Below, piece by piece: positions 21,819-43,765 of a stretch of 64,000 nucleotides of DNA (its first letter is position 1; each line of letters starts with the position of its first letter). Below the pieces are notes generated by a model that saw only the letters and a program-made list of their open reading frames with translations, was not told where the DNA came from and searched no databases. Origin of the DNA: Chitinophagaceae bacterium. GTDB taxonomy: Bacteria > Bacteroidota > Bacteroidia > Chitinophagales > Chitinophagaceae. Where the stretch lies: contig JAIEMK010000015.1 of assembly GCA_019752295.1 (NCBI GenBank), positions 62,001 through 126,000 on the forward strand, in the 5' to 3' direction. A program made the position numbers and the translations under genes.

Positions 21819-22382
21819 TTAATTATAAACAGTTATCGGCTGAGGCTTAACAGACTCTGCCAGCCATAAGAACTCTTTGATAAAGATATCTACCATTTTC
21901 TGAAAGGATTCATCCACTAAATTTCCCTCTGCCGTAAACTTCTTATCCACAAAGGGAGTTATTAGCATATAGGGCGATGCAATACCAAATAAAGCGGATA
22001 TCAATAATAATAACTGCTGACTGGACCGCATACCACCCATTGAACCTACTGAAGCCGGAGCAATACCAAATGCTTTATGGCTTTGCTTCGGAAAATGGTC
22101 CAACAAGTTTTGGAGCGCCGGAGAATAACTGCCATTGTATTCAGGAGTTACCAGTATAAAAGCATCTGTTGCAAACATTTGTTTGGCTAAAGGCTTGAAT
22201 TCTTCGGGTGTTTTTTCAACTGAAACAAATACATCCTGCAATAATGGTAGATTCCATTCGCGTACATCAATAATATTTATTTTATGACTGGTCTTTTGAG
22301 CTAGTTGATTCTTCAGAAATAAAGCCAACCTATGTGTAACACTATCTTTTCTTGGGCTTCCTGTAATAATTGAGATATTCAT
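21819..22382 (-). CDS. NAD(P)H-dependent FMN reductase family
   Basis: A 187-residue flavodoxin-like protein with the FMN phosphate loop TGSPRKDSVTHRLA near the start. The family signature LVTPEYNGSYSPALQNLLDHF comes next, then APASVGSMGGMRSSQQL. Relatives reduce quinones, azo dyes or chromate using NAD(P)H and FMN. It lies 101 bp downstream of the yceI gene on the same strand, in a likely MarR-controlled group. An intrinsic terminator ends it. Confidence 0.88.
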   Translation of the reverse strand: MNISIITGSPRKDSVTHRLALFLKNQLAQKTSHKINIIDVREWNLPLLQDVFVSVEKTPEEFKPLAKQMFATDAFILVTPEYNGSYSPALQNLLDHFPKQSHKAFGIAPASVGSMGGMRSSQQLLLLISALFGIASPYMLITPFVDKKFTAEGNLVDESFQKMVDIFIKEFLWLAESVKPQPITVYN

Positions 22383-22483
22383 ATCCTATTTTTTTAAACT
22401 GCTTTCGTTTGAAAGCAAGTTTACTGATTAATCAACACAGTTATAACAATATATATTGCATCCTGTTCACTAAAAAATCAGCC

Positions 22484-23008
22484 TTAGTGTTTTATCATTT
22501 GAACGTTCAATAGTAGCTTCACTTCATCGCTTACTACTACGCCGCCTGCTTCAGTTACTGCACCCCAAGTTAAACCGAAATCTTTACGATTGATTTTACC
22601 CGAAATTTCGAATCCAGATTTCACCTGACCATAGGGGTCCGTTGCAGTACCACCGTATTCAACGGCAAATTCAACCGATTTTGTAATATCACGGATGGTA
22701 AGATCTCCGACTAATGAATAATCAGAACCCCCTTGGTGGCTAAAAGAAGTTGATTTGAAACTTAGTGCAGGGAATTTTTCTGCAGAAAAGAAATCGTCAC
22801 TTTTCAGATGACCATCTCTTTGTTCATTGTTGGTAGAGATACTGTTCACATCTGCTTCAAACGAAATGCGCGCATCGCTGAAATCAGCCGTTGCAGATTC
22901 CATTGTTGCATCAAATTTTGTGAAACTACCTGTTACATTGGTAATCATTAAGTGCTTTACTTTGAAAATAATTTCACTGTGTGCTGCGTCGATTTTAAAA
23001 GTTGACAT
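22484..23008 (-). CDS. YceI-like lipocalin-fold protein
   Basis: A 174-residue YceI family protein starting directly with the conserved STFKIDAAHSEIIFKVKHL. FSDARISFEADVNSISTNNEQRDGHLKSDDFF and the late GKINRKDFGLTWG segments follow. The fold is an eight-stranded barrel that binds polyisoprenoid or other hydrophobic molecules. There is no signal peptide, so this copy is probably cytoplasmic, unlike E. coli YceI. A palindrome similar to the one before the adjacent marR gene lies in its upstream region. Confidence 0.92.
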   Translation of the reverse strand: MSTFKIDAAHSEIIFKVKHLMITNVTGSFTKFDATMESATADFSDARISFEADVNSISTNNEQRDGHLKSDDFFSAEKFPALSFKSTSFSHQGGSDYSLVGDLTIRDITKSVEFAVEYGGTATDPYGQVKSGFEISGKINRKDFGLTWGAVTEAGGVVVSDEVKLLLNVQMIKH

Positions 23009-23074
23009 ATTTGTTTTTTTTATTTTTGAATTTTGAATTTTTACTTATCAGCTTATCTTGGTTTTATAATTAGC

Positions 23075-23088
23075 TGTACATACATGTA
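23075..23088. promoter_or_regulatory. Candidate MarR operator before yceI
   Basis: TGTACATACATGTA, containing the 8-bp palindrome TACATGTA, in the 95-bp gap between marR and yceI. It aligns at 11 of 14 positions with TGTACGTACATTCA in front of marR. Confidence 0.55.
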
Positions 23089-23103
23089 TTTAATTAAAAA
23101 AAA

Positions 23104-23562
23104 TCAATCCCCTTTGCTTCTTACTTTTTCCAGCAAACTATTTAATTGTACCGCATCGTGCTCCGTTAACAGCAGTGAGTGCTCCATTAGTTCATCCACT
23201 TTCTTCGTTGTTGCTTCCAGCAAAACCAAGCCACTTTGAGTAAGTGTTATTACCGTTTCTCTTTTATCGATATTCGATGTAGTTCGTTTTACCAGTTTTT
23301 TGATTTCCAAACGGTCTACAATCCTTGGTACGTTTGAACTTTTTTCAATCATCCGGCAGGCAACATCTCTAACGCAAATCTGATCGGGATACTTGCCTTT
23401 CAGGATTCTTAACACGTTATACTGTTCATGCGTTAAGCCAAACTCTTTTAATTCTTTGCTCATGATGGTTTTTAACCACCAGGCGGTATATAATATATTC
23501 AAACCGGCTTTATGACTCTGGTTTTTAAATTTGGTGCTTTGTATTGCTTGTTCCAATTTCAC
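23104..23562 (-). CDS. MarR-family transcriptional regulator
   Basis: A winged-helix regulator of about 152 residues. The MarR domain covers WWLKTIMSKELKEFGLTHEQ, then VRDVACRMIEKSSNVPRIVDRLEIKKLV and the wing TTSNIDKRETVITLTQSG. The frame opens with a TTG at 23589, but that start lies inside a perfect palindrome; the GTG at 23562 (KLEQAIQSTKF) is preferred. It is transcribed towards yceI and the FMN reductase, and similar palindromes lie before both marR and yceI. It probably represses the group and itself. Its ligand is unknown. Confidence 0.88.
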   Translation of the reverse strand: MKLEQAIQSTKFKNQSHKAGLNILYTAWWLKTIMSKELKEFGLTHEQYNVLRILKGKYPDQICVRDVACRMIEKSSNVPRIVDRLEIKKLVKRTTSNIDKRETVITLTQSGLVLLEATTKKVDELMEHSLLLTEHDAVQLNSLLEKVRSKGD

Positions 23563-23573
23563 AACACAAATGT

Positions 23574-23585
23574 ATGTACGTACAT
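23574..23585. promoter_or_regulatory. Perfect 12-bp palindrome before marR
   Basis: ATGTACGTACAT, a perfect palindrome 11 bp upstream of the preferred marR GTG start. It is the likely site for MarR autoregulation and is similar to the palindrome before yceI. Confidence 0.6.
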
Positions 23586-23618
23586 TCAATTTACCAAATT
23601 ATTTTTCTCCTTTTTTCC

Positions 23619-23650
23619 TGGCCGATTTTTAGAGTGCTAAAAATCGGCCA
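23619..23650 (-). terminator. Perfect 14-bp hairpin behind the TonB receptor
   Basis: TGGCCGATTTTTAG / CTAAAAATCGGCCA with a 4-nt loop. It lies 19 bp past the receptor stop on the minus strand. The T-run is inside the stem rather than after it, so it may be a terminator or an RNA-stability element. Confidence 0.6.
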
Positions 23651-23668
23651 AATGTCTTTTAAGAAAGT

Positions 23669-25843
23669 TTAAAATCGTGCGGCTATTCCCAGATATACGC
23701 TCCTACCAATGGATGGAATAATTCCAGGACCCGGATATTCATCTGTTCTTCTGGTGTAGTACGACTTATCGGCCAAGTTGTTTACACCAATCTTTACAGA
23801 ATAGTTTTTTATTTTATAAGTTCCGCTTAAATCTAAAACGGTATATGCGGGTATATATCCTGCAATAGGATCTTCGCTCTGTTTTACATTCGAAGCATCG
23901 CCATATGCATCACCCACAGAATTTACCTGAAATGTAGCAGAAAGTTTTTTGGAATTAAATATCAGCCCCACCCTGTTAATTGTATTGGCAGCGGCTTCAA
24001 CCCTTTTCCCCGAAAATTCGCCACTGGTATATCTGGCATCAATATAAGCAAAAGAATTAAAGATACTAAGACCATAGTGCGAATGATTATTCAAGTATTT
24101 TAAAAGATTAAATTCCACATAGGTTTCAATTCCTTTATGAACGCTGTTTGCAATATTCGTTCTAAGAGAATAAAGATCACCGGTAACAGGGTCTGTCTTC
24201 AACAATACACCGATTCTATTATTATATGCCATATAAAAAACACCGATATCAAAATTCAGAAAGTTTTTGATTGTGCCCCTGAACCCCAGATCAGAATTAA
24301 AACCATTTGCATCTTTCAATCCCGGGTCGATCTTTGAACTGATTCCAAAGGGTTCCAACTGGCCGTATTCAATAGGCTTGTAAGCCTGACTTATATTTGC
24401 ATATACATTCGCGTTCATGCTCGCTTTGTATTGCAAGCCCAAACCAAACAATGGAAATGATCTCACACGCTTTTCGTTCGACTCTAGTTTATTATTGTCG
24501 CTGATCTTATATCCTTTTGAAGTACTTTCCAAATACTCCAATCTAAAGCCTGGTGTAACAGAAAATTTTTCACTCACTCTAAATATATTCTCTATAAAAG
24601 TTGTCGTGTTTTTAGTTGTGAATTTTAAATCATAACCCCAGTTCCCGTTTATACTCAAATTAAAATCGGCCCCAGTTGTACCTTCACCCGCTCCCATTCT
24701 ATCGAACCAGGCATATGCCAATCTAACACCAGTTGCGAGGGTTGATTTCTGATTTCCTAAAAAGTAATTTCTGGAAAGTCTGATTTCTGTTGTGGAGTTG
24801 TGCATTCTTTCAACACCCACTTCTCTGGGAGTATATTCGTTCGTTACCGGATCTATCAGGTCTAATGCCGAAGGACCACCATCTTCGTTTCTCCAAACCA
24901 GCGATCGGCTGCTAAAAAGATAAGTTGATTTGATATTTAAACTTGTTTCTTCATCAATAGAATAGCTTGCATTGGCGGCAATAATATTCCATGGACTGCG
25001 AAGCCAATTTCTCGACCTTGTTGATATTTTGGCATCTAAATTAAACAAGCTGTCGGTTAGGCCACCGGGCATTTTCAATTGGTTTCGGAGTATAGAATAC
25101 TCTATCCCAAAATTTAATTTGCTAGATACTGCATATTGCAATTTTCCGAATCCCGAAAATTGCCATTGCCGGCTATTGGGGCGGTAACCATCCATATAGC
25201 GGTATTGCATAAACGCATAATAATTAAATTTCTTAAAGCTCCCCCCAATCGAATTAAACGAATTGAATAATCCAAAACTCCCAACCGTTTGTGAAGTATT
25301 CCATTCAAAAGATTTATTAACTGGCGCGTCTCTGATAACATAATTCACCAAGCCTCCAAATTGCGATCCAAATTGTAAAGAAGCAGCCCCACGCACCATT
25401 TCAATTCTTTGAACAGCTTCCATTGGGGGAATATAATAAGCTTCATTATAACCAAAAATATCGGCGCTGATATTGTATCCATTCTGCCTTGTATTCATCT
25501 CGATACTCTGAATAGGATTCAAACCCCTTGTAGCAATTCCATTTGCAGTAAACCCTCCTGTTTCAGTTTCCACAATATTCAATCCCGGAATACGACCCAA
25601 AATTTGCCGCGTATTATTAATGGCTTTATTGGCATCTAAACTGTCTACAATAATCAGTTCGCTTTTTTTACCGGCATAAATAATTCCATCTTTCAATTCG
25701 GGCATATGTCCGATGCCCCGAACAGTTTTGAATGCAGTAACAGTAACTTCATTCAGTCGGTGTACGGTATTTGAATCGTTTTGTGCAATGCTAACAAATG
25801 GTAGAGAGAATGATAAACTAACTAAAAATTTCCTGAGTCTCAT
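23669..25843 (-). CDS. TonB-dependent outer-membrane receptor, FecA-like
   Basis: A 724-residue outer-membrane receptor. A signal peptide ends at SIAQ (about residue 21). No carboxypeptidase-like domain precedes the plug, which has the TonB-box-like LNEVTVTAF and NNTRQILGRIPGLNIVE. GIATRGLNPIQSIEMNTRQN follows, as in ferric-citrate receptors (FecA). The beta-barrel ends in YLGIAARF with a terminal phenylalanine. The likely substrate is an iron chelate. No FecR/sigma factor pair or ABC transporter is adjacent, so the substrate is inferred only from resemblance. Confidence 0.88.
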   Translation of the reverse strand: MRLRKFLVSLSFSLPFVSIAQNDSNTVHRLNEVTVTAFKTVRGIGHMPELKDGIIYAGKKSELIIVDSLDANKAINNTRQILGRIPGLNIVETETGGFTANGIATRGLNPIQSIEMNTRQNGYNISADIFGYNEAYYIPPMEAVQRIEMVRGAASLQFGSQFGGLVNYVIRDAPVNKSFEWNTSQTVGSFGLFNSFNSIGGSFKKFNYYAFMQYRYMDGYRPNSRQWQFSGFGKLQYAVSSKLNFGIEYSILRNQLKMPGGLTDSLFNLDAKISTRSRNWLRSPWNIIAANASYSIDEETSLNIKSTYLFSSRSLVWRNEDGGPSALDLIDPVTNEYTPREVGVERMHNSTTEIRLSRNYFLGNQKSTLATGVRLAYAWFDRMGAGEGTTGADFNLSINGNWGYDLKFTTKNTTTFIENIFRVSEKFSVTPGFRLEYLESTSKGYKISDNNKLESNEKRVRSFPLFGLGLQYKASMNANVYANISQAYKPIEYGQLEPFGISSKIDPGLKDANGFNSDLGFRGTIKNFLNFDIGVFYMAYNNRIGVLLKTDPVTGDLYSLRTNIANSVHKGIETYVEFNLLKYLNNHSHYGLSIFNSFAYIDARYTSGEFSGKRVEAAANTINRVGLIFNSKKLSATFQVNSVGDAYGDASNVKQSEDPIAGYIPAYTVLDLSGTYKIKNYSVKIGVNNLADKSYYTRRTDEYPGPGIIPSIGRSVYLGIAARF

Positions 25844-28222: not shown

Positions 28223-29089
28223 CTAATTAACACCTAGCTTTTTTAATTTTTTGATTTGTCCTACGAGGTAAATTAATACTCCCCATACCGCCACAACAAT
28301 TGAATAAGCCAACAATTCTAACCACATGGGAGATTTCCCTCTTCTAGCAAACAGCGTACGTTTATCAAATTCTGAGTAATATTTAAAAGACTTTCCCCAG
28401 GGAACTACTTTTTCTGCACTCAGGTTTCCGTAAAGATCGTTGTCTTCTACTTTAGCGATCAGTGTTAAATTTCCTTTCGCATCTCCGGGCAGGCTATCTC
28501 TTTTAAAATCTGCACTGGCAATACCCAGTGAATCTGTGGCATAGGTTGGTGCGTCTGCAACATTCAGATCAGCATCTAGTCGCTTGATTGCGATCTTAAC
28601 ATCTACCGCTTTTACGGGAGTCCATACAGAGTCTTTCAGTTCCATCACTGTTGCAGTAATCTTTTTGTCGGCAGCAGTATCGATCAGTATTTTGGCTTTT
28701 GTAAGATCAAAACTGCCCTTTGCCTCATCAAATAATTTTGTGCTCGCTGAAGAAACCAGAAAACCAACTTTTGCCGATTTCATCCATTCATCTTTTGCCT
28801 TCGGTGGCATAAAGATCAGCGCTTCTCCTTTATCGTTTGTAACTGCTTTCCCCAAAAGATTTTCTGGTGTTTCAGTACTAATATAAAAACTCACGCTGAT
28901 GCCCGGAATCATTTGAAACTTACCATCGATCTTCGACTTTGCACGGGCAATCAGATACTGTGTTTGATTATTGCTATTAAAATAGCCAACACTTAGCGAT
29001 AAAGAATTTTTTTCAGCTTGGGCAAATACTGCGTTTACTAATAGTTGCAATAGTATAGCTGAAAGAAAAATTTTGCTATGTTTTTTCAT
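28223..29089 (-). CDS. Unknown exported protein with C-terminal membrane anchor
   Basis: Unrecognised protein of 288 residues. A signal peptide ends at AVFAQ. Beta-rich domains of transthyretin/Ig-like type follow (GISVSFYISTETPENLLGKA). A C-terminal transmembrane helix (MWLELLAYSIVVAVWGVLIY) ends in a short basic tail. It is the last gene of the NrfD/cytochrome cluster. The open frame extends upstream through a dispersed repeat to 29155; the ATG at 29089 comes directly after that repeat and precedes a proper signal peptide, so it is the start. It may be an accessory subunit facing the periplasm. Confidence 0.8.
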   Translation of the reverse strand: MKKHSKIFLSAILLQLLVNAVFAQAEKNSLSLSVGYFNSNNQTQYLIARAKSKIDGKFQMIPGISVSFYISTETPENLLGKAVTNDKGEALIFMPPKAKDEWMKSAKVGFLVSSASTKLFDEAKGSFDLTKAKILIDTAADKKITATVMELKDSVWTPVKAVDVKIAIKRLDADLNVADAPTYATDSLGIASADFKRDSLPGDAKGNLTLIAKVEDNDLYGNLSAEKVVPWGKSFKYYSEFDKRTLFARRGKSPMWLELLAYSIVVAVWGVLIYLVGQIKKLKKLGVN

Positions 29090-29177
29090 GTGTCTTTTAT
29101 TGATTTTGGTTCCGAGTGCTCGGGATTCGCTAACTAACATTTCAGTTGGTGTCAAATTTTTGTTATGCTCATTTCAT
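29090..29177 (-). repeat. Dispersed 88-bp repeat, copy B
   Basis: Matches copy A (51900-51987) at 81 of 88 positions, same orientation and same length. Its promoter-distal end encodes the last residues and stop codon of the NrfD gene, and its other end abuts the ATG of the next gene. The central hairpin is CCGA-GCAC-TCGG with a mismatch outside. Confidence 0.92.
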
Positions 29178-30474
29178 GTTCTTCGATTTCAGTGATGGTT
29201 TCCTGTATTGGTATGATTGGGAAAATTCGTGCAAAAAGGGTTACAATAAGCAACGCTCCTGCTAAAGAGCCCAACGCAATCGCCCACTCCTGCCATGTTG
29301 GAAAATAGTGTTTATACGCTTCCGGCACATCGTGCATTGGTAAAAACGGATGCAATAATGTGGGTGTTACAATCAGGTATCTTTTAAACCATGAACCAAT
29401 CACCACCAATAAACCTGCAATGAAAGCAGGTAGCGGCTTTCTTCCCCTCTTGGTTATCAAAATTAAGATTGGAATAATCATTGCCGTAGAAATTGCAAAC
29501 CAGAATACGGGTGCAAATTCGCCGGTAAATAAGCCCATCAAATGCTCTTCTTCCGATTTCTTCATCTTGAAAGCAGGTACCAGAAATTCGTTTACATTAA
29601 AGTACAAGTATAGCAAGGCTAACATTACCAATACTTTTCCCATCTTATCGAAGTGCTCGTTCTGTATATATTTTTCGAGGTGATATGCTTTTCTAAAAAC
29701 ATACATTGCTACTACTACAGCTCCGGCGCCCACTAAGAATGCTCCCGAAATAAAGTAAGCACCGAAGTTAGTACTGTCCCAGCCGGGGCGATAGGTTGTT
29801 GCGAATAACCAGGATGTTACCGTGTGTATTGCAAATGCCACAGGAATAATAGTAATCGATAAAATGTTCACTGCTTTTTCGCTGATATGGATCTGCGCTT
29901 TTGTATTTTTCCAGAACGATCCTAAGAATGCATACATTTTATTTAACCAGGCCATCCCGGTTTTGTCTTTAAATTTCATCAGGATTGCCATATCGGGCAA
30001 TAAAGGGAAATACAATAAAAGTATACTTACAAAAAAGTAAGTGGTGATAACGATAACGTCCCAAACAATTGGTGATTGCAAACGTGCGTGTATGAACAGA
30101 TTGTAGAACCTGTCGGGTCTACCCATATCAACCACAATAATAATTGATGCAAATGTGATTGCTGAAACGGCAATGATTTCTGCGATCCTAGTTAGTGGGG
30201 TGCTCCACTTGGCCTGACTTAATCGAAGTACTGCAGTGATAAGAGATCCAACCAAACTGATGGCAACAAAGAATACAAAGTTTGAAATATAGATTCCCCA
30301 TGATACATAATCGCGCATGGCTGTTACAACCAAACCCTTCGACAATTGCATGCAATAAGCTACAAAGCCCAGTGTGCAGAATGCTAGTAATATTACAACC
30401 CAAATCTTACCCGCTTTACCAAACTTCTGTGGCAGGAGGTCTTCAATAATTTTTTGTTTTGCTAAACTTTCCAC
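29152..30474 (-). CDS. nrfD: NrfD/PsrC-type quinol-interacting membrane subunit
   Basis: A 440-residue integral membrane protein of the NrfD/PsrC/ActC family, with about ten hydrophobic helices (for example ISNFVFFVAISLVGSLITAV). Such subunits exchange electrons and protons between the quinone pool and an Fe-S partner on the periplasmic side. The partner gene is directly upstream, 16 bp away. The start is GTG. The final residues (EMSITKI) and stop codon are encoded by the 88-bp dispersed repeat. Its length is nearer to the ActC/PsrC type than to short NrfD. Confidence 0.9.
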   Translation of the reverse strand: MESLAKQKIIEDLLPQKFGKAGKIWVVILLAFCTLGFVAYCMQLSKGLVVTAMRDYVSWGIYISNFVFFVAISLVGSLITAVLRLSQAKWSTPLTRIAEIIAVSAITFASIIIVVDMGRPDRFYNLFIHARLQSPIVWDVIVITTYFFVSILLLYFPLLPDMAILMKFKDKTGMAWLNKMYAFLGSFWKNTKAQIHISEKAVNILSITIIPVAFAIHTVTSWLFATTYRPGWDSTNFGAYFISGAFLVGAGAVVVAMYVFRKAYHLEKYIQNEHFDKMGKVLVMLALLYLYFNVNEFLVPAFKMKKSEEEHLMGLFTGEFAPVFWFAISTAMIIPILILITKRGRKPLPAFIAGLLVVIGSWFKRYLIVTPTLLHPFLPMHDVPEAYKHYFPTWQEWAIALGSLAGALLIVTLFARIFPIIPIQETITEIEEHEMSITKI

Positions 30475-30490
30475 GATCTATGATTTAGGG

Positions 30491-31426
30491 TTAACTTTTT
30501 TTGTTTTCCTCTTTTTCTTCTTTGTTTTCAAAAGGGAAGTTTCTGTTTACTGGTGGCAAGTAATACACACTTGGTTTTGTGCCCAGATCTTCCATCAGTC
30601 TGTAACCGGCTTTGTCGCGCACCAGTTCGCTGAAGCGGAAAGTCTCAGAACCATTGGTTACCGCATCTTCATTCAGATCGCCAAACATGAATACTCCGTT
30701 CGGGCAAGCAGAAACACAATGTGGCAGTTCGCCTTTTCTGGCCATATCCGGACAGAAATCGCATTTACCAACTGTACCTTTTTTTTGTGGAACACTTGTT
30801 TCGCAGGAATAAGGTTTCTCTGCAATTTCTTTAGGCAAATTCAACTCTTCCCAGTTAAATACGCGTGTTGAATAAGGGCATGCTGCCATACAAAATCTGC
30901 AACCGATGCAACGGTCACTATCGATCAACACAATACCGTCTTGTCTTTTGAAAGTGGCATCCACCGGACAAACTTTAACGCAGGGTGGTTCATCACAGTG
31001 CATACAGGTGGTAGGTTGCCAATAAGGAGCCGTGTGATCAGCTTCTTGTTGTGGATATACTTTAATCCAGTTTTGACCCGGATGAATGCTGTGCATATGA
31101 TTGCAGGCAGATTGACACTTCTTCAGACTCTTACATCTGGAAAGGTCAATGACCATCACGAATTTTTTTCCGGCAATGCCTTGTCTGGCAAGTTGATTAG
31201 AAACCTGCGGTAATTCTGGAACCGGCTTTAAAAAAGCTTTATCAACTTCAATCACTTCACCATTTACAGAAAGAAGTTTTACCATTTCGCCAGAAGGTTT
31301 AACGGTTTCAAGTGTTGCAGTATCCGGTTGAAAAGGGTTTTTTCCCGAAGAGCAACCTGCAACAGCTAATCCGGCCAGCACTGTAGCCGAAATAAATTCT
31401 CTTCTCGAAGTATCGTTGGTTTTCAT
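30491..31426 (-). CDS. Periplasmic 4x[4Fe-4S] electron-transfer subunit with Tat signal
   Basis: A 311-residue Fe-S protein of the NrfC/PsrB/DmsB type. The N-terminus has a twin-arginine signal (TSRREFISATVLAG) followed by VAGCSSG, a possible lipobox. Four cysteine groups are visible: CKSLKKCQSACNH, CMHCDEPPCVKVCP, CIGCRFCMAACP and CDFCPDM...CVSACP, enough for four clusters. It should relay electrons to or from the NrfD subunit encoded next. No molybdopterin catalytic subunit is encoded in the cluster. Residues about 45-60 (VKLLSVNGEVIEVD) resemble part of the neighbouring 89-residue protein. Confidence 0.92.
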   Translation of the reverse strand: MKTNDTSRREFISATVLAGLAVAGCSSGKNPFQPDTATLETVKPSGEMVKLLSVNGEVIEVDKAFLKPVPELPQVSNQLARQGIAGKKFVMVIDLSRCKSLKKCQSACNHMHSIHPGQNWIKVYPQQEADHTAPYWQPTTCMHCDEPPCVKVCPVDATFKRQDGIVLIDSDRCIGCRFCMAACPYSTRVFNWEELNLPKEIAEKPYSCETSVPQKKGTVGKCDFCPDMARKGELPHCVSACPNGVFMFGDLNEDAVTNGSETFRFSELVRDKAGYRLMEDLGTKPSVYYLPPVNRNFPFENKEEKEENKKS

Positions 31427-31445
31427 TGAAACTATTTAATGATGA

Positions 31446-31715
31446 TTACCTTTTAACCCATTCTTGCATTTCTTTATTAGAAGCTTTTTCTTTTAAAGAA
31501 TTGACTTTAGTGATATCAACTTCTACAAGCTGACCATCTTGGGTTAAAAATTTCATGGTTTTTTTTTCATCGGGACCGGGGGCACAAGCGATTACATTCT
31601 TTTTTCTGGTAAAGAATCCCATTGTGAAAAAACTGAAGATCGACATGATGCCAATTCCTAAGAGCACCGTCCTTCTAGTATTTTGTTTTGTTGAAACCGG
31701 TTCTAATTCTTGCAT
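31446..31715 (-). CDS. Small RR-signal membrane protein of the respiratory cluster
   Basis: Unrecognised 89-residue protein. NTRRTVLLG and the hydrophobic stretch after it (GIGIMSIFSFFTMGFF) form a Tat-like signal or membrane anchor. The periplasmic part carries MKFLTQDGQLVEVD, which resembles VKLLSVNGEVIEVD in the Fe-S protein encoded 19 bp downstream. The close spacing suggests co-transcription and a shared complex. It could be an anchor or assembly subunit. Confidence 0.75.
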   Translation of the reverse strand: MQELEPVSTKQNTRRTVLLGIGIMSIFSFFTMGFFTRKKNVIACAPGPDEKKTMKFLTQDGQLVEVDITKVNSLKEKASNKEMQEWVKR

Positions 31716-31758
31716 GGACTAAACTTGAAAATGGTGAAAAGATTTACGCAATGGAGTT

Positions 31759-31797
31759 TTTATTTGAAAGGCAGTATTAAACTGCCTTTCAAATAAA
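31759..31797. terminator. Perfect 17-bp intercistronic hairpin
   Basis: Arms TTTATTTGAAAGGCAGT and ACTGCCTTTCAAATAAA with loop ATTAA, in the 101-bp gap between the cytochrome c gene and the small RR-signal gene. No separate T-run follows on the minus strand. It may be a partial terminator or an RNA processing/stability element dividing the cluster. Confidence 0.6.
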
Positions 31798-31816
31798 CTA
31801 CAATGAATAATTAGTG

Positions 31817-32218
31817 CTACTTCTTTTTAAAAGTGCGCATGTAATTAATCACACTCCAAATTTCCTCTGCATCCGGAATTTTCTTTTTGAAAGAAGGCAT
31901 GTCTTCTCTTCCTTCAGAAACTTTGTAAAACATAGATCCGTCGGACTGCGACTGCATTGCTGCAGTTGAAAGGTCTTCGGGTTGTGTTTTTAATTGTGCA
32001 GCTTTACTACCGTCGCCCATACCGCTTTTACCATGGCATGAAGAACAGTGCTGACTCCAGATAGCTTTACCTGCTGAAAGAGATGATGCATCTACTTTAA
32101 CCGGGTTGGGTGTTTTTGCAGCCTTCTCCGGAACAGGCCAAGGCTTTCCGGGATTCAGCGTAAAACTCGCAGCAATTACAAATACTGCTAAAAGTGCAAT
32201 GGTGAACAGATGTTTCAT
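31817..32218 (-). CDS. Monohaem class I cytochrome c
   Basis: A 133-residue periplasmic cytochrome c. A signal sequence (LFTIALLAVFVIAASFTL) precedes a single CXXCH motif (QHCSSCHGKSGMGDG). The distal methionine is probably in EDMPSFKKKI, and the domain ends with the usual helix (EEIWSVINYMRTF). It is likely a soluble or N-terminally anchored electron shuttle for the cluster. It lies between the DUF5777 barrel and the RR-signal protein, all on the minus strand. Confidence 0.9.
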   Translation of the reverse strand: MKHLFTIALLAVFVIAASFTLNPGKPWPVPEKAAKTPNPVKVDASSLSAGKAIWSQHCSSCHGKSGMGDGSKAAQLKTQPEDLSTAAMQSQSDGSMFYKVSEGREDMPSFKKKIPDAEEIWSVINYMRTFKKK

Positions 32219-32268
32219 TTGTGTTTGTTTTATTTACCAAAAATTTACAACAATTTAAATTTATTAGA

Positions 32269-33195
32269 TTAAAAATTCCACAACCGTGAAATGTTGAATC
32301 CAATTACATATTGTCCTTGTTGGAAGTCGTTTGTGCTATACAATGAGTTATACTGCGGAATAGTATTTCCATAGTTTCCAAAGAATACCTGAAAATCGTG
32401 ACCACTTGATTTCATATCCAGACCCAGACTTAAATTAGGATATACATTGTTTAAAGGATGTTGGGTTAATGGTTGTTCGTAGTTTACAATGATGGAAGTC
32501 TTCGGTGAAATTTTATACCGTCCGCCTAATGAGAATGACAGATGATCATTTTTCATAGCAGGCTGAATTACTTTATTGGCATCATAATATCCATCCACAT
32601 TATTAAAGTGGATATAGTTGAATGATCCCTGAACAGAAAATGCTTCCGTAAATTTTCTTGCTATAATAATTTGATTAAAGAAACTCATCCTGTCTGCTGT
32701 AGTTACAATGGGTAAGGAGGGATCTTTTGCCCTTGTATCCATTGCTGCATTTCCATAATAAGTAACCGATACAGGAATCGTTTTATCTTTAGTTTGTTTC
32801 AGTAGCGCATATTTAGCGCTCCAGTCAACAATCATATTATAATTGTTAACCCCAAATCCAATCTGCAAATTTTTAACAGGAGCATAGCTGAAACCCAAGC
32901 GCATATTAGCTCCTGCAAATAAGCCAAACAAATCTTTGAAGTTATGATCAATGGTTCCGAAGCGGTGATTGATATCGAACTCAAAAGTTCCTTTAATAGG
33001 TACCATTACGGTTTGATTGTCGATCAGGAAATTTCCCTCGAATGTATTTTTTACATAGGATTTCTTTTTGGCCACCGGCGCAGTAGCGGTAGAATCCTGA
33101 GCCTTCAGTTCAGTTCCGGCGATAGCGGCAGCTACAATCAGAAGCAGCAGAAATCTTAGCTGAATAGAAGGGAAATGAATTTTATATTTTTTCAT
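32269..33195 (-). CDS. DUF5777-like outer-membrane beta-barrel protein
   Basis: A 308-residue protein with a signal peptide (LRFLLLLIVAAAIAGTELKAQ) and alternating beta-strand pattern to the end (QYVIGFNISRLWNF, terminal Phe), typical of an outer-membrane barrel. It resembles the DUF5777 family, which often sits with haem proteins in Bacteroidota. About 270 mature residues would allow roughly 12-14 strands. It is encoded between two cytochrome genes, 10 bp after the upstream one, so a pore or scaffold role for electron transfer is possible but unproven. Confidence 0.8.
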   Translation of the reverse strand: MKKYKIHFPSIQLRFLLLLIVAAAIAGTELKAQDSTATAPVAKKKSYVKNTFEGNFLIDNQTVMVPIKGTFEFDINHRFGTIDHNFKDLFGLFAGANMRLGFSYAPVKNLQIGFGVNNYNMIVDWSAKYALLKQTKDKTIPVSVTYYGNAAMDTRAKDPSLPIVTTADRMSFFNQIIIARKFTEAFSVQGSFNYIHFNNVDGYYDANKVIQPAMKNDHLSFSLGGRYKISPKTSIIVNYEQPLTQHPLNNVYPNLSLGLDMKSSGHDFQVFFGNYGNTIPQYNSLYSTNDFQQGQYVIGFNISRLWNF

Positions 33196-33205
33196 TGTAG
33201 TTTAT

Positions 33206-33604
33206 TTAATTGTTTTTTGCACCTTGTTTAATCCAGGCAAACACTTTTGCGTTGATACTCTGAATTGGACCAGTTCCTAGCGGCATTGCAGGAGATTTCT
33301 TTCCGGCCATCCACTGGTAAACCGAACTATTATCCGGATCACTAGCTTTGAGGTAGCCTCCCCCTGTTAATGCTTTGTATGAATTTGCCGCAGTCAGGTC
33401 CGGCGCTTTTGCACCTGCAACATGACAACCGCTTAATGCGCAACTCTTATCGAAAATCGGTTGTATATCTTTTGCGTAACTCATTTCAGTAGTAATACTA
33501 TTACCCGGGTTGATAACCAGTGTAGTAGTTTTATAACATCCTGAAAAAATGAGCAGCATTATCGTAACCCCGACTGATAATAGCGCTGTTTTTTTCTTTA
33601 ACAT
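33206..33604 (-). CDS. Lipoprotein with cytochrome-like CX4CH motif
   Basis: A 132-residue lipoprotein (lipobox IFSGC, about residue 23) followed by a compact cytochrome-like domain. AKDIQPIFDKSCALSGCH gives a CX4CH haem-binding candidate, and SPAMPLG could provide the distal methionine. The ordinary haem motif is CXXCH, so the spacing is unusual. The ATG at 33604 is preferred over a TTG two codons upstream. It is packed tightly between the EB_dh-like and DUF5777 genes (32 and 10 bp gaps), so it is part of the operon. Confidence 0.8.
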   Translation of the reverse strand: MLKKKTALLSVGVTIMLLIFSGCYKTTTLVINPGNSITTEMSYAKDIQPIFDKSCALSGCHVAGAKAPDLTAANSYKALTGGGYLKASDPDNSSVYQWMAGKKSPAMPLGTGPIQSINAKVFAWIKQGAKNN

Positions 33605-33636
33605 GATCAATTGTTTTTATTAAAACAGAGGGTTAC

Positions 33637-34929
33637 TTATTTCGCAAATTTCAAAAGCAGGTTTGGCTGAATACCATGTTGATAGTTAGCAGTATTGAAT
33701 ATTGCTATACCAAAAGGCTGATCAGACAGGCTGCTGAAATCGATATCCTGTTTCAAAACATCCGGTGTTTTTAATAAACGTTTGTATTCCAAAACCCAAC
33801 CTGTGCCGGTATATTTTCCCTGAGCTACGATATCTGCGCGACCCATGGTTAAAGGAGCAGATATAAAAGCAGGAATACATTTTGTACCAACTGTTGGAGC
33901 AACACCTGCATTGTCTAAATATTCTGCCTTACCATTTGGATCCAAAGTACCGCCAACATAAGTCAATACACCTGTACTGCTAATGCCTGTAACTTTTAAT
34001 GCCTTACCACCTGGAAGTGTATCGGTAGCTAAATAATATAATTGACCAACTGCATCCGGAACAATCCATTTAGGAACATTAACTGAAGCGCCGGTTCCAT
34101 CCAATTTTAAGCTCTGTGTGTTGTTAAAAGCACCATTGCTGGTATTTGTATTGGTATTTACATAAGCAGTGCTGAATGGAACTGGGGGAACCAAATCGTC
34201 TGCGTGGCGGCCATTTCCTGATCCACCTACTGTATCTGTTACAGAAGGTCCACCAGCCCAATCCTGATATTGATCATCCATCTGGCCGGTTACTAAATCT
34301 TTGTTTAAATGACACCACCACATATCAATTTTTTCGTTAGGTCCGTTTGTATAGTGGTTACCACTTTTATTTGGAACCATTACACCAGAGAAGTTTCTGT
34401 ATGGAGTAAATATGTGACAACTGGCATAACATGTTTGAGTAATAAATTTAGGAGTTGAATTATCAATATTCCAAAGCATTGCCAACTGATCCTGACCCAT
34501 GCCTTCTTTGGTTAATACGCCATTTACATCGAACTGTTTTGCATTTGCTCTTTGTGCCCAACGCTGAGTAGTAGGGTTAAAGAACCAAGGCTGAACCTGA
34601 TAGTTACTAGGGTCGTTCCATTCAGCCAAAAAATAAATATACTGATCATCATACATAGCGCGTATGGTGGCCGGATATTGCGTACCCTGATATCCTGCGA
34701 ACAATCCGTTTCCCGGATCAGGTACGGTAGGAGTTACAGCAAGTTTAGTTGCATTGTCCCAAATGGCATCCACAACACCATCAATAGTGGGTGCTGCACT
34801 TGTTTTATATGAAATTAATTCGTTTGTACTGGCCGTTTCTGTCGGAGCAACAATCTGTGCGGTCTTAGTACAGTAAGCAAAAAATACTGTAACTGAAATA
34901 AAAAAGAAAAGAACAAAACTGGTTTTCAT
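33637..34929 (-). CDS. Ethylbenzene-dehydrogenase-type haem lipoprotein (EB_dh)
   Basis: A 430-residue lipoprotein (lipobox FFAYC, about residue 20). The core matches the EB_dh family, the haem-binding subunit of DMSO-reductase-type enzymes. It has APTIDGVVDAIWDNA near the start, YDDQYIYFLAEWNDPS, and a C-terminal YKRLLKTPD strand. A CYASCH segment (CX3CH) and WWCHLN near the middle may bind haem. The family normally transfers electrons from a molybdenum enzyme to cytochromes, but no such enzyme is encoded here. As first gene it is the likely head of the operon. Confidence 0.85.
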   Translation of the reverse strand: MKTSFVLFFFISVTVFFAYCTKTAQIVAPTETASTNELISYKTSAAPTIDGVVDAIWDNATKLAVTPTVPDPGNGLFAGYQGTQYPATIRAMYDDQYIYFLAEWNDPSNYQVQPWFFNPTTQRWAQRANAKQFDVNGVLTKEGMGQDQLAMLWNIDNSTPKFITQTCYASCHIFTPYRNFSGVMVPNKSGNHYTNGPNEKIDMWWCHLNKDLVTGQMDDQYQDWAGGPSVTDTVGGSGNGRHADDLVPPVPFSTAYVNTNTNTSNGAFNNTQSLKLDGTGASVNVPKWIVPDAVGQLYYLATDTLPGGKALKVTGISSTGVLTYVGGTLDPNGKAEYLDNAGVAPTVGTKCIPAFISAPLTMGRADIVAQGKYTGTGWVLEYKRLLKTPDVLKQDIDFSSLSDQPFGIAIFNTANYQHGIQPNLLLKFAK

Positions 34930-38170: not shown

Positions 38171-41100
38171 ATGGTGTTAAATCAACTCGATTCGGAATTG
38201 TATTTTGAAACAGTGTGCGCTGTTTTTAAAAAGGAAGTGCTTGATGATACTTCTTCATGGGTAAAATATTATAAAGAGGATTGGCAAAGCATAGCCGAAA
38301 AAGAACTTAGCAATATCAAATATTTACCCCGTCATGAATATTTCTTAACCCCCTTCCCTTCTTCTCAGGTTCAAGATTTTAAATACCCCTACCACCATTT
38401 TAAAACCCTCGATGACTGGATCGAAGAGCAGGCAATTGATGCTGACTATACGGAGAGGGCATTTGGCATTGCTAAACAGATGCTACTATTGATTAAGCTG
38501 TTACACCAGCATCAAATGATTCATGGAGCTGTTAATACATCTCATTTTTTGGTTTCAGAAAGAGATAAGGTCTTTTTAAGCGAATGGGGTTTTTTAACGA
38601 GAACAGTTCAACCCGAATTAACTCAGAAGGAATTATATTATTCAAAAGGCATTATCAATTATATTGCCCCTGAGCAAACAGGAAGAATCGATAGTAAAAC
38701 CGGTTTTTATACCGATCTCTATTCTTTAGGCGCCTGTTTTTACAAGCTTTTTACAGGTCATACCATCTTTGAAGAAACTGATCCAATCAGTATCATTTAT
38801 AAACATTTAACTTTTGATCCACTACCAGCCGACCAACTAAATTCTTATATGGGGAAGGCCGCTGCAAATGTGATTAGAAAGTTATTAAGCAAAGAGCCGC
38901 AAAAAAGATTCATTAGTGCAGAAGCAACGCAATCAGCCCTTGAGCAGGCCTACGAAAGGTTTAAAAATAAGGACCTTTTTAACGGGCTTGAACAAATCGA
39001 TGCTGCAAACTTAAATAGGTTTAGTCTAATACAGCATTTCCCGACGCTGATCGAAAATAAAATTTATTATTTTAAGAGTCAGTATCTGCAGGCTGTTGAA
39101 AGCAATGAGTGCTTTCTTTTTTTTATTCAGGGTCTCACCGGTTCCGGAAAGCAATTTGCCGTAACACATTTTTGTGAACTTATTTCAGACAGAAAAACGT
39201 TGGTATTGAATACCTTTTTTTATAAAGATGAACCAATACCTTATGAACCCTTTAAACTAATCTTAGATCAGGTTACCCGATATTATTTATCGCAGGAAGA
39301 AGAAGAATTAATCAATTTTAGAAATATTTGCAGCGAAAATTTAGGAAGTTCTATTAATATTTTACTTGACATATGTCCTGATTTAAAACATATCATTCCC
39401 TATGCAAAACAGAATAAGGAAGAAGGTTTGATAGAATTGCAGAATCAATTAATTTATGCTTTCGCATCACTACTAAAAATAATTTTGAGCAGTGGTAAAA
39501 AATTGGTTCTCTGTTTAAAAGACATTCATTACGCCACTGCGGGCGTATTAAAAATCATTGATGGAATACTCAACGAATTTCCTTCAACAAGAATCAACCT
39601 AATTTTTAGTTACGAAAATCGATCGTTGAAACCCAACCAACTCAGTTATATTTTAAAGTGGCAAAATCAACAACAGCCTGGTTTTACCAAGGGAAAGATT
39701 GAGCTTGTGCCACTTACAAATTTTCAGACTTCAAAATTATTTGCTGCTGCCGGATTGATTGAAGATGATCTGGAAACCTTAACAGATATATTGTTTCCAA
39801 AAACAAATTGGCTGGTATTATTGATGGATCGAGCTTGTGAGACCTTGGTTGCAAATGATGCCCTTTATTACGATTCTGAAAAATCTAAATGGAGATTAAA
39901 ATATGAGAAAGCGATTATTAGTAACATCAATTTCGTTAACCCCGCATCTTACTTTGAGGGACTGATCGCAAAATTATCGAACGAAGAATTGATCTTGCTT
40001 AGTTACGCAACAGCATTCGGAAAAAGTTTTTCTTTTGACATCATAAAAACAGCGATCAAAAATGAAAGACTTGCAATAAATTTATTGGATCAGTTAATAC
40101 ATAAGGCAATTTTAAAGGAGTCGGGCAGAATTGGGTTCTACGATTTTTGTGAACCCGATCTTTCAAATTTCATCCTCCAAAATATTAACGGGAAGGCTTT
40201 AACCGAAATCTATTTCGCCATCATTGAAGCCTATACTCGCATGCCCGACTTAGAAATTTCTGATGAGGACTTTTTTAACCTACTCGACAAACTATTAAAT
40301 ATTCCTCCCAATCAGGCAAAATCATTTGTATCTATTTTGTGGATGGGAATTGAAAAAACAAACAAACTTGCTTTGTTTGACATCAACTATCAATGCTATA
40401 CACACTTAATAAGAATGGTGGAAGATGATGACTGGATCACAAACAAAGAAGCACTCATTGATCTTTATATCGAGTATATCAAGTCGGCATCTCTCGTAAT
40501 GAAATTTGATGTTTGTGAGCAATCTTATACATTTTTGAGGCGCCTTCCTTTAACAAAATTGCAGTTGGGTAATCTGGGTTATAGCTATGCCAATGCCCTT
40601 TTTATAAAACAGGATTTTAGAAAATCTATTTTGGTTTTGGCAGAAATACTTTTGGAATTAGGAATTCCACTCAACACAAACCCTTCGCTTTTTAAAATCA
40701 TTTTGTCGATGCTTTCGCTGCGCAGTAAGATGCGCGGAAAAGATATGGCTTATATCGAAAAACTTCCTCTTGCTAGTGATGACCTGTCATTCGTAAAAAT
40801 CAAATTGCTGCAAAACGCAATGGGCGCGGCATATTTCTATGCCCCAAAAATGGTTCCTGAATTAACTTTGAAGCAATTGAGTCTTTCCTTAAAAAGTGGC
40901 GCATCGGATTTATTCGGCGTTTGTTTAACCTGCTATGCTTTTATTCTGAGTATTTATACAAACTCAAAAGAAGCCGAAAAGATTTATTCAATTGCTCGAA
41001 CAATGAATGACCGTTTTGGGGATCCTGTTGCAAAAGCCACTTCAGAATTTCTGTATAGTACTTTTATCGGCATCAATCATTTGCCTTGGAGAGAATGTAG

Positions 41101-43765
41101 CGAAAAGCTATATAACAATTATATTTTTAGCCGGCAAATAGGTCAGGTAAATATTGCATTCTTTAGCCTCATTACACACTTTACCAACCAATTTTATTCG
41201 GAATCCAATATCGAAAGATTGGCGGAATCAATAGAGGAATTATTGCCAATCATTCAATCCAACAAACAAGAAAATGCTTTTTCTTTCCTGAATATTTTAT
41301 TGAGCTGTACAAAAGATCTTTTAAGCGATCACATTCCGGCTATTAAACTGGCAACTCATTTTCCAACTATTGAAACAGTTAAAAAGCTGGCAAACGATCA
41401 ACAGGAATTTACAACCCTAAATCATATATACATACTGGAGGAAATGCTTGACTTTTTTAATGACGATTATGCAGTTGTTAAAACCCGTGTGAAGAAGATG
41501 CAGGAAATGAAAAGTCAACTTGGTATGGTCAACAGCTTTATCATGCATCATTTTTTTATCGGCCTCAGACTCTTAAAAAAAGAGGGGGCACTTAAATTTT
41601 GGGAGCTTTCATTTATCAGAAAAACAATGCGACTGCTTGCAAAAACAACGAAGCAACAAAAGGAGAATGGTTATGCTAAATATCAATTGCTAAAAGGTTT
41701 TTATATTTTAAGAAAAAACAAAACGGTTCAGGCACTGTTTCATTTACAAAGCGCTTACGATTTTGCTGTTTTAAACGATCAGTACATGACTGCCGCAATT
41801 GCTTCGGAAGGAATTGCAACCATTTACCGAAGGGGGGGGATGATAGAATCAGAAAAGAATTATCTCAGAAATGCACATACTCAATATAATTTCTGGGCCG
41901 CAAAATCGCTAACCCGAAAATTGGAAGAGGCGAATTCTTTTTTACAAACAGGTAATGAGGCGACTGAGAGTCAAAAAGAAAATTCGGGGCCATCGGCATC
42001 CGTTCAAAACTTTATCGCTGAATCGAATGCGCTAAATGCAGAAGCAGGTTTACAAAATCATTTGGAAAACCTGATCACTATTTTGATTGAAAATGCGGCT
42101 GCCGAAAATGCTTTTTTTATCATTGTTGATCATAACAATCAATTTATTATATACGCTTCGAAAAGAGGCAATGGCCCGATACAAACCGAACAAGTGCCTG
42201 CAAATAAAGCAGCCCTTCCCTTAACCGTTATTCAGTACGTTTTTAGAACCAAAAAGGGGTTGCAACTCAACAATGCTTCAAAAGATGCAGTTTTTAAAAC
42301 AGATACCTATATATCAGAAAATCAGGTGTGTTCAATACTTTGTACGCCTGTATTAAAGAATAACCAGATAAGGGCTTTGATACTGTTAGAAAATAATCAG
42401 ATTACACAAGCATTTACTCACGAAAAATCGGAGCTTGTTCAAGTGCTAGCTTCACAGATTGCCATCTCGTTCGAGAATATGGCATTATTTAATTCAACAG
42501 AAGAAAAGACTATTCTGAGTGGCCAAAATCTAGCAAATAAAAAATCCATAGAATTAGAATTGAACATGATACCGTTCGAAATTGCAAAGGAACTTCCTGA
42601 GAAAGAAAGTCAGGATACAAAATTGCACAAAAACGTAACGGTTCTATTTGTCGAATTTATAAATTTTAAAAGCATTGCAGAAAAACACTCTTTTCAGGAA
42701 TTGATAGTGGAGCTGGACTATTGTTTTAAAAGTTTCGACCAGATTATCAACCAATATGGACTGCAAAAAATTAAGACACTTAATGGTGCTTATCTGGCAG
42801 TATGCGGTTTACCAATTCAAACTGAGCGCCACGCCGAAAGGGTTGTGGAAGCAGCGCTGGATATTCAAAAATTTATTCAGGAAAATAAAAGAATTAAAAA
42901 GGCTGCAGCGAAAATTTACTTTGATACAAGAACGGGTATCAGTTCTGGTTCTGTTGCAGTAATTGCTGACACTAAAAAACATTCGCTTGATATTTGGGGA
43001 TCTGCTGTTAATCAGGCTTCAGTCCTCATGGAAAATTGCGAAGCAAATAAAATTAACATCAGCGCAGATACTTTTGAATTAATAAAAGAATGGTTTGATT
43101 GTGAACTGCGCGAGAAAATTAAAAGTACAGGGAACGATTCAATAGCAATGTATTATGTTAACGACCAGCAGATCTTTTATAAAATAAGACAAAGGGTTTT
43201 TCTAAGAATGCAGGATCTGGATTCCGGTTTGTATTATCATTCTATCTGGCATACGACCGATGTATTGAATCAAGCCGAAAGAATTGCTCTGGCGGAAGGT
43301 ATCCACAACGAGCGCCAATTATTGCTACTAAAGATTGCCGCCTTATACCACGATATCGGATTTCTGAATACTTATATCAATCATGAAGAAGAAAGTTGCC
43401 ACATTTTCTTATCCGACGCAGAATCGCAGGCCTATGAATTAACGATCAACGAAAAGGATTTGATCTGTAATATGATTATGGCTACAAAAGTTCCGCAAGA
43501 CCCACAGTCAAAACTAGAACAAATACTCTGCGATGCAGACCTTGATTATTTGGGTAGGGATGATTTTTGGCTGGTAGGAAAAAAACTTTTCTCAGAAATG
43601 TTCGCCTACGAATTTTTAGAAACCGAAAACGAATGGAACGAAATGCAGATTAAATTTCTAAAGACCCACCGGTATTGTACTGAAACTTCTTTGCGATTAA
43701 GGAACGAGAAAAAAGAAACATATTTGCAAATCCTCATTGAAAAAAGAAATAAGGATTTTTATTAA
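38171..43765 (+). CDS. 1864-residue pseudokinase-STAND-GAF-cyclase-HD fusion
   Basis: Giant cytoplasmic signalling protein. Residues 1-260 are a Ser/Thr-kinase fold that has lost its catalytic residues: the HRD loop is HGAVNTSH (118-125), DFG is EWG (138-140), but YIAPEQTGR is kept. A P-loop at 321-328 reads GLTGSGKQ, in a STAND-like ATPase (about 290-740). Helical repeats fill about 750-1285. A GAF domain covers about 1290-1440. A class III cyclase domain covers about 1485-1660, but its metal sites are E1495 and G1539 instead of two aspartates. The C-terminal HD domain (about 1685-1830) keeps HTTD, YHDIG (about 1726) and DADLDYLG (about 1788). Only the HD site looks intact. The HAD gene follows after 9 bp. 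Confidence 0.88.
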   Translation: MVLNQLDSELYFETVCAVFKKEVLDDTSSWVKYYKEDWQSIAEKELSNIKYLPRHEYFLTPFPSSQVQDFKYPYHHFKTLDDWIEEQAIDADYTERAFGIAKQMLLLIKLLHQHQMIHGAVNTSHFLVSERDKVFLSEWGFLTRTVQPELTQKELYYSKGIINYIAPEQTGRIDSKTGFYTDLYSLGACFYKLFTGHTIFEETDPISIIYKHLTFDPLPADQLNSYMGKAAANVIRKLLSKEPQKRFISAEATQSALEQAYERFKNKDLFNGLEQIDAANLNRFSLIQHFPTLIENKIYYFKSQYLQAVESNECFLFFIQGLTGSGKQFAVTHFCELISDRKTLVLNTFFYKDEPIPYEPFKLILDQVTRYYLSQEEEELINFRNICSENLGSSINILLDICPDLKHIIPYAKQNKEEGLIELQNQLIYAFASLLKIILSSGKKLVLCLKDIHYATAGVLKIIDGILNEFPSTRINLIFSYENRSLKPNQLSYILKWQNQQQPGFTKGKIELVPLTNFQTSKLFAAAGLIEDDLETLTDILFPKTNWLVLLMDRACETLVANDALYYDSEKSKWRLKYEKAIISNINFVNPASYFEGLIAKLSNEELILLSYATAFGKSFSFDIIKTAIKNERLAINLLDQLIHKAILKESGRIGFYDFCEPDLSNFILQNINGKALTEIYFAIIEAYTRMPDLEISDEDFFNLLDKLLNIPPNQAKSFVSILWMGIEKTNKLALFDINYQCYTHLIRMVEDDDWITNKEALIDLYIEYIKSASLVMKFDVCEQSYTFLRRLPLTKLQLGNLGYSYANALFIKQDFRKSILVLAEILLELGIPLNTNPSLFKIILSMLSLRSKMRGKDMAYIEKLPLASDDLSFVKIKLLQNAMGAAYFYAPKMVPELTLKQLSLSLKSGASDLFGVCLTCYAFILSIYTNSKEAEKIYSIARTMNDRFGDPVAKATSEFLYSTFIGINHLPWRECSEKLYNNYIFSRQIGQVNIAFFSLITHFTNQFYSESNIERLAESIEELLPIIQSNKQENAFSFLNILLSCTKDLLSDHIPAIKLATHFPTIETVKKLANDQQEFTTLNHIYILEEMLDFFNDDYAVVKTRVKKMQEMKSQLGMVNSFIMHHFFIGLRLLKKEGALKFWELSFIRKTMRLLAKTTKQQKENGYAKYQLLKGFYILRKNKTVQALFHLQSAYDFAVLNDQYMTAAIASEGIATIYRRGGMIESEKNYLRNAHTQYNFWAAKSLTRKLEEANSFLQTGNEATESQKENSGPSASVQNFIAESNALNAEAGLQNHLENLITILIENAAAENAFFIIVDHNNQFIIYASKRGNGPIQTEQVPANKAALPLTVIQYVFRTKKGLQLNNASKDAVFKTDTYISENQVCSILCTPVLKNNQIRALILLENNQITQAFTHEKSELVQVLASQIAISFENMALFNSTEEKTILSGQNLANKKSIELELNMIPFEIAKELPEKESQDTKLHKNVTVLFVEFINFKSIAEKHSFQELIVELDYCFKSFDQIINQYGLQKIKTLNGAYLAVCGLPIQTERHAERVVEAALDIQKFIQENKRIKKAAAKIYFDTRTGISSGSVAVIADTKKHSLDIWGSAVNQASVLMENCEANKINISADTFELIKEWFDCELREKIKSTGNDSIAMYYVNDQQIFYKIRQRVFLRMQDLDSGLYYHSIWHTTDVLNQAERIALAEGIHNERQLLLLKIAALYHDIGFLNTYINHEEESCHIFLSDAESQAYELTINEKDLICNMIMATKVPQDPQSKLEQILCDADLDYLGRDDFWLVGKKLFSEMFAYEFLETENEWNEMQIKFLKTHRYCTETSLRLRNEKKETYLQILIEKRNKDFY

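Follow-up and report, generated by a model that had tools for sequence, protein, structure and literature searches.

What an iron-sulfur (Fe-S) protein and an NrfD-family membrane protein do when they are encoded beside haem lipoproteins, a predicted outer-membrane barrel and a cytochrome c, with no molybdopterin subunit among them, is the question raised by a cluster of eight genes in the window, the 64,000-nucleotide stretch of DNA from a Chitinophagaceae bacterium. All eight open reading frames (ORFs) lie on the minus strand, from position 34929 to 28223 of the window, and the intergenic gaps, counted from the EB_dh gene at the head of the cluster to the anchored-protein gene at its end, are 26, 10, 50, 101, 19, 16 and -4 bp; a spacing of -4 to 101 bp suits a single operon. 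An earlier note, made from the letters alone, had listed this eight-gene set on one strand, and the genes were found as described, with domains assigned by Pfam and NCBIfam; at the level of sequence comparison the domain calls for the EB_dh, DUF5777, cytochrome c, Fe-S and NrfD proteins are firm. The cluster is read here, with about an even chance of being right, as a molybdenum-free quinone-linked electron-transfer system composed of a core and an outer-membrane cassette.

The search for orthologues covered first 199 genomes of the order and afterwards a collection of named genomes, from which the best 80 loci of 585 relatives were kept; gene order was compared in 98 related loci, which belong to Bacteroidota where named. 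The earlier note had proposed looking for the same gene order in relatives, and the arrangement recurs in the 98 loci. The core order of cytochrome c, small RR-signal protein, Fe-S protein, NrfD and anchored protein is nearly invariant, with the cytochrome gene standing before or after the remainder. The anchored protein was found in 96 of the 98 core loci, the Fe-S protein in 95, the cytochrome in 87 and the small RR protein in 83; NrfD is present in all 98 by construction, and some of the absences of core genes represent contig ends. Cultured carriers of the operon are Limnovirga soli, Niastella vici, Mucilaginibacter flavidus and Solitalea agri.

The NrfD-family membrane protein (29152..30474, minus strand, as for all genes of the cluster) matches PF03916 (Pfam, E 8.9e-32), and its best match in the PDB is ActC of alternative complex III (6f0k_C, 275 bits). 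The quinone-site and proton-gate residues of ActC have been assigned as His139, Ser164, Asp169, Asp253 and Arg395 (PMC8076601), and four of these five positions are kept in the window protein, as Ser134 (Ser164), Asp139 (Asp169), Arg365 (Arg395) and Asp117, which stands at the His139 position as Asp does in DsrP1. Asp253 is replaced by Leu223, and the Asp117 position is also lost in three distant relatives. Retention of most quinone-site residues is consistent with the view, already taken in the earlier note, that the NrfD/Fe-S pair is quinone-linked. The Fe-S protein (30491..31426) is a predicted periplasmic multi-cluster protein with an RR signal and a lipobox-like AGC, which matches Fer4_11 (Pfam, E 1.5e-21) and, in the PDB, the ArrB-type 6cz7_B, the PsrB-type 2vpw_B and the C-terminus of ActB (6f0k_B). 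It had been described as a four-cluster protein, and the multi-cluster type stands, but 15 rather than 16 ligand cysteines are conserved; position 101 is Cys in just 2 of 17 aligned sequences, so that among the four clusters one is probably of the [3Fe-4S] type or has other ligands.

The other three members of the core are smaller or less familiar. The cytochrome c (31817..32218) is a putative periplasmic monohaem protein (CSSCH) that matches PF13442 (Pfam, E 4.5e-12) and, in the PDB, c552 entries and ActE (6f0k_E, E 1.9e-12); residues C58, C61, H62 and M107 are invariant in 23 sequences, and Met107 is the likely axial haem ligand. The small RR-signal protein (31446..31715, 89 amino acids (aa)) has a transmembrane (TM) segment at residues 16-36 and resembles the N-terminal segment of the Fe-S protein, with p<=0.01 in 61 of 63 loci and p=0.012 for the pair in the window. 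The anchored protein (28223..29155) is a predicted periplasmic immunoglobulin (Ig)-like protein with a C-terminal TM anchor at residues 276-302; its match to Big_1 (Pfam, E 0.0013) is below the cut-off, and no solved relative was found by sequence search. Its presence and TM anchor agree with the earlier description, except that it probably starts at ATG 29089 rather than 29155, since Met23 is nearly invariant among relatives. NrfD and the anchored protein are joined in one 741-aa ORF in locus L047 (a single case, in which an assembly error is possible), and this suggests that the two proteins are in contact.

The core is best read as a reduced relative of alternative complex III, holding ActC-, ActB- and ActE-like parts only. 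It resembles that complex in its NrfD protein, which is like ActC and keeps most of the quinone residues, in an Fe-S protein like the ActB C-terminus and in the ActE-like monohaem cytochrome, but the pentahaem ActA, the molybdopterin-like domain of ActB, ActD and ActF are found neither in the window locus nor among its conserved neighbours. The genome itself also has a separate alternative complex III-type ActB-ActC-ActD set. DsrO and DsrP of the DsrMKJOP complex are the best NCBIfam matches of the Fe-S and NrfD proteins, yet both lie below the cut-offs (187 of 200 bits and 142 of 350 bits, respectively), and DsrM, DsrK and DsrJ are not among the conserved neighbours. Orphan NrfCD modules of the CISM family, which likewise consist of an Fe-S and NrfD pair with no molybdopterin subunit, have been described for Melioribacter roseus, where a role as quinol:acceptor reductase was proposed, with electrons going to periplasmic cytochromes and perhaps to an Fe(III) reductase of the outer membrane (PMC3534657). 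The acceptors named there are multihaem cytochromes, whereas the fixed neighbours in the present locus are a monohaem cytochrome, the small RR protein, the anchored Ig-like protein and a DUF5777/haem-lipoprotein cassette that can be swapped.

This cassette adjoins the core and consists of a head component (X), a lipoprotein with a CXnCH motif and a DUF5777 protein. The head in the window, and in most loci, is an EB_dh-domain lipoprotein (33637..34929, 430 aa), which matches PF09459 over the cut-off (Pfam, E 1.2e-18). Its structural model aligns with the gamma subunits EbdC (2ivf_C; Z 19.1, root mean square deviation (rmsd) 3.0, 197 residues aligned) and NXR-C (7b04_C; Z 17.4, rmsd 3.0, 204 aligned), although model confidence is moderate (mean predicted local distance difference test score (pLDDT) 61.6, with residues 163-192 and 226-267 below 50); on this modelled evidence the family keeps the EbdC/NXR-C fold. 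In EbdC and NXR-C haem b is bound via Met and Lys (PMC8387239), on a molybdoenzyme with a linked molybdopterin alpha subunit, whereas the family described here comprises lipoproteins with a c-haem motif, and no such subunit is linked to the window protein. The motif, CYASCH (CX3CH), occupies residues 167-172; its Cys and His are kept in 52 of 54 EB_dh relatives, as is His418, and no Met/Lys haem-b pair is conserved across the 54 EB_dh sequences (judged from alignment columns, the ligand positions not being superposed). A covalent c haem would be expected in this protein because the CX3CH motif and His418 are conserved and the Met/Lys pair is not. The earlier note had recognised the domain, which is borne out, but had overlooked this motif.

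The small lipoprotein (33206..33610) carries a CX4CH motif (CALSGCH), of which the Cys, Cys and His are invariant in 25 aligned relatives, and ATG 33604 is its likely true start. Among the CXnCH lipoproteins the spacer has four residues in most, five in one and the canonical two in L170-L173, which argues that the motif is a real haem site. The motifs of both lipoproteins are thus conserved, as far as sequence tells, and the absence of haem binding that would have spoken against the earlier note was not seen. The DUF5777 protein (32269..33195) matches PF19089 (Pfam, E 6.7e-75), and its AlphaFold model (mean pLDDT 85.4) has 12 long strands, in keeping with the barrel proposed earlier; the best Foldseek match is NanC (E 9.7e-8), with other porins also near by fold. 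A second DUF5777 locus occurs in the same genome (G000:C82; L055:1045-7199) with a Rieske-type lipoprotein, YceI, a related cytochrome c and a 427-aa porin-like protein.

An EB_dh protein was found in 14 of the 199 genomes of the order, 13 of which bear the core (G161 being counted from a contig end), giving a hypergeometric P of about 4e-15 that is not corrected for kinship. In the order sample a CXnCH lipoprotein adjoins 16 of 18 EB_dh proteins, and DUF5777 also does so in nearly all. The head position is variable: a YceI-type lipoprotein or a di-CX4CH protein stands in for EB_dh elsewhere, a hexahaem lipoprotein replaces it in the distant relative L173, another hexahaem lipoprotein stands beside the cassette in L170, and several loci hold two cassettes. 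Three heads occur within the genus of the window (EB_dh in its own genome G000, YceI in G126 and di-CX4CH in G186), and for the 71 loci that could be given a head label the tree of the core protein NrfD implies no fewer than 24 changes of head (a quick tree, with head labels limited to 9 kb).

The outer-membrane part resembles the MtrAB and Cyc2 conduits in that a barrel is encoded with haem proteins, but MtrA is a decahaem protein whereas each haem protein here has a single haem-c motif, the monohaem domain of Cyc2 is fused to its barrel whereas separate genes are found here, and the present barrel is predicted to have only 12 strands. A literature search that lacked most subscription papers found DUF5777 in no paper, nor the combination of YceI, NrfD and outer membrane, nor a core coupled to such a swappable cassette. 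Precedents exist in the orphan NrfCD pairs and in alternative complex III. The c-haem EB_dh lipoprotein and a DUF5777/haem-lipoprotein cassette with swappable heads fixed to the core appear to be new.

The proposed route of electrons begins with NrfD, which would exchange electrons with quinone at the periplasmic face and pass them to the Fe-S protein, held at the inner membrane beside the small RR protein and the TM-anchored Ig-like protein. The Fe-S protein would reduce the monohaem cytochrome c, which would in turn deliver electrons to the cassette of 12-strand barrel, haem-c lipoprotein and swappable head, here the EB_dh protein with its putative c haem. From the head they would reach an acceptor at or beyond the outer membrane, and a change of head would suit a change of partner. 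The gene content and its conservation, the haem motifs, the quinone-site residues, the predicted folds, the lack of a linked molybdoenzyme and the exchange of heads are observed here; complex formation, the direction from quinol to the outside, surface exposure and the partner are inferred. In its fullest form the proposal is of a modular respiratory system across the envelope of Bacteroidota, not described before, in which a fixed molybdenum-free quinone:cytochrome c core is coupled to a 12-strand barrel and single-haem lipoproteins, and in which close relatives exchange the outer head (c-haem EB_dh, YceI, di-CX4CH or hexahaem) to match different extracellular electron partners. This form is put forward tentatively and is considered rather doubtful.

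Several observations weigh against the proposed route. Of the 199 genomes of the order 174 have DUF5777, in most cases with no core, and the unit of DUF5777, YceI and haem lipoprotein is common there without the NrfD core, so the barrel module is not necessarily a respiratory conduit to the outside. In 12 core-less loci (L174-L185) YceI lies alongside DUF5777, usually with CXXCH/CX4CH lipoproteins and a small membrane protein of ~140-150 aa, a unit which is widespread in the order. The YceI head has no haem motif and therefore need not be an electron exit. The lipoprotein export signal C-X-K-(D/E)2, defined in Capnocytophaga (PMC5080379), is present in none of the lipoproteins of the window, and among relatives with a lipobox it fits about 6 of 67 CX4CH and 2 of 33 EB_dh proteins. 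The genome itself has no PF22113 MtrC-like multihaem protein. As a marker of extracellular transfer over the order, the MtrC-like domain was uninformative; many matches look like ActA of alternative complex III, and those resembling ActA lie close to places where ActC is found.

Flow in the reverse direction, to which a low probability is given, would start at the head, with oxidation of a donor from outside such as Fe(II) or reduced humics. Cytochrome c would then hand the electrons to a terminal oxidase or, at a cost to the proton gradient, send them uphill by way of the Fe-S protein and NrfD into quinone. FoxE, the iron oxidase of a phototroph, is the nearest solved structure to the CX4CH lipoprotein (E 5.6e-7), although the similarity is weak, involves one segment and covers the common CXnCH fold. 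PsrABC, an NrfD complex, depends on electrochemical potential (PMC8076601), which would fit uphill transfer, but the Fe-S clusters and NrfD suggest a chemistry ill-matched to Fe(II). By their record titles, a number of the named loci originate from lakes and sand filters, but lake sampling is biased.

Instead of forming a conduit, the outer-membrane module could carry out redox catalysis on envelope lipids, isoprenoids or small molecules, with the core just feeding it electrons. The YceI family binds isoprenoids, and YceI-type heads accord with such a role, as does the wide occurrence of DUF5777 outside core-bearing loci, often with YceI and haem lipoproteins, which suits a house-keeping function; it is mainly because the barrel/haem/YceI unit extends beyond the loci linked to NrfD that this explanation is kept. 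It is nevertheless thought improbable, as the hexahaem, di-CX4CH and c-haem EB_dh heads look like electron carriers and no catalytic site was recognised.

Service to a molybdoenzyme encoded elsewhere is very unlikely and has been largely refuted. In other organisms, molybdoenzymes or related complexes contain EB_dh and DsrO-like proteins as subunits, and the earlier note had allowed for an enzyme at a distance while observing that no molybdopterin subunit was present at the locus. That observation holds: neither in the window locus nor as a constant companion in relatives was a linked molybdoenzyme recognised, so the finding that would have refuted the earlier note was not made, and some core-bearing genomes lack any PF00384 match. 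Among the 19 genomes of the order sample that bear the core, 8 have none, 5 a weak partial match of the ActB kind and 6 a full one, which disfavours a molybdoenzyme partner, and in 50 further core-bearing genomes (completeness not given) 13 have none and 19 a weak partial match. The genome of the window encodes one full PF00384 protein, but this 1170-aa protein, of the NasA type and fused to Pyr_redox and Fer2_BFD domains, is encoded on another contig beside a transporter gene and is assimilatory in type. A tblastn search with NasA over 111 loci also speaks against such a partner, but it is a weak test that reaches near relatives only, and the PF00384 searches carry the argument. Chance proximity of unrelated genes, for which nothing speaks except the unusual mixture, is already refuted by the recurrence of the set in 98 loci of several families in varied orders and on varied strands, and by the joined ORF.

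Other features were observed near this and related loci. Cys-rich FNR-like regulators, or CheY-Crp regulators with a PAS kinase, lie near some clusters (L050:12066-13734, L051:977-10800, L166:4826-6501, L053, L064, L108 and L133) and hint at oxygen or redox control; FNR/Crp palindromes give no support, with 14 in the window against 15.7 expected and none upstream of the operon. In L115, L125:2331-7819 and L126 a multihaem protein with paired CXXCH motifs and a ~1580-aa repetitive Ig-like protein are encoded directly upstream of the core. The window also encodes a flavin mononucleotide (FMN) reductase, YceI, MarR and a TonB receptor at 21819-25843, and MarR, YceI and FMN reductase follow the core in L057, L058 and L060. 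At 38171-43765 lies an 1864-aa protein that reads as a fusion of kinase, ATPase, GAF, cyclase and HD parts. A NorC/NorB-like pair (COX1 domain, CTSCH) was found downstream of a core-type locus (L171:13161-14907), and CRISPR-looking arrays of short direct repeats stand beside the core locus of a more distant relative of the phylum (L172:1-2100).

The Bacteroidota of lakes, soils and filters are usually regarded as aerobic polymer degraders, and the system proposed here, if true, would connect their quinone pool to the outer membrane by a dedicated route. It would also place the uncharacterised DUF5777 family, and EB_dh proteins without a molybdoenzyme, in a context for the first time, and the cultured carriers make the system testable.

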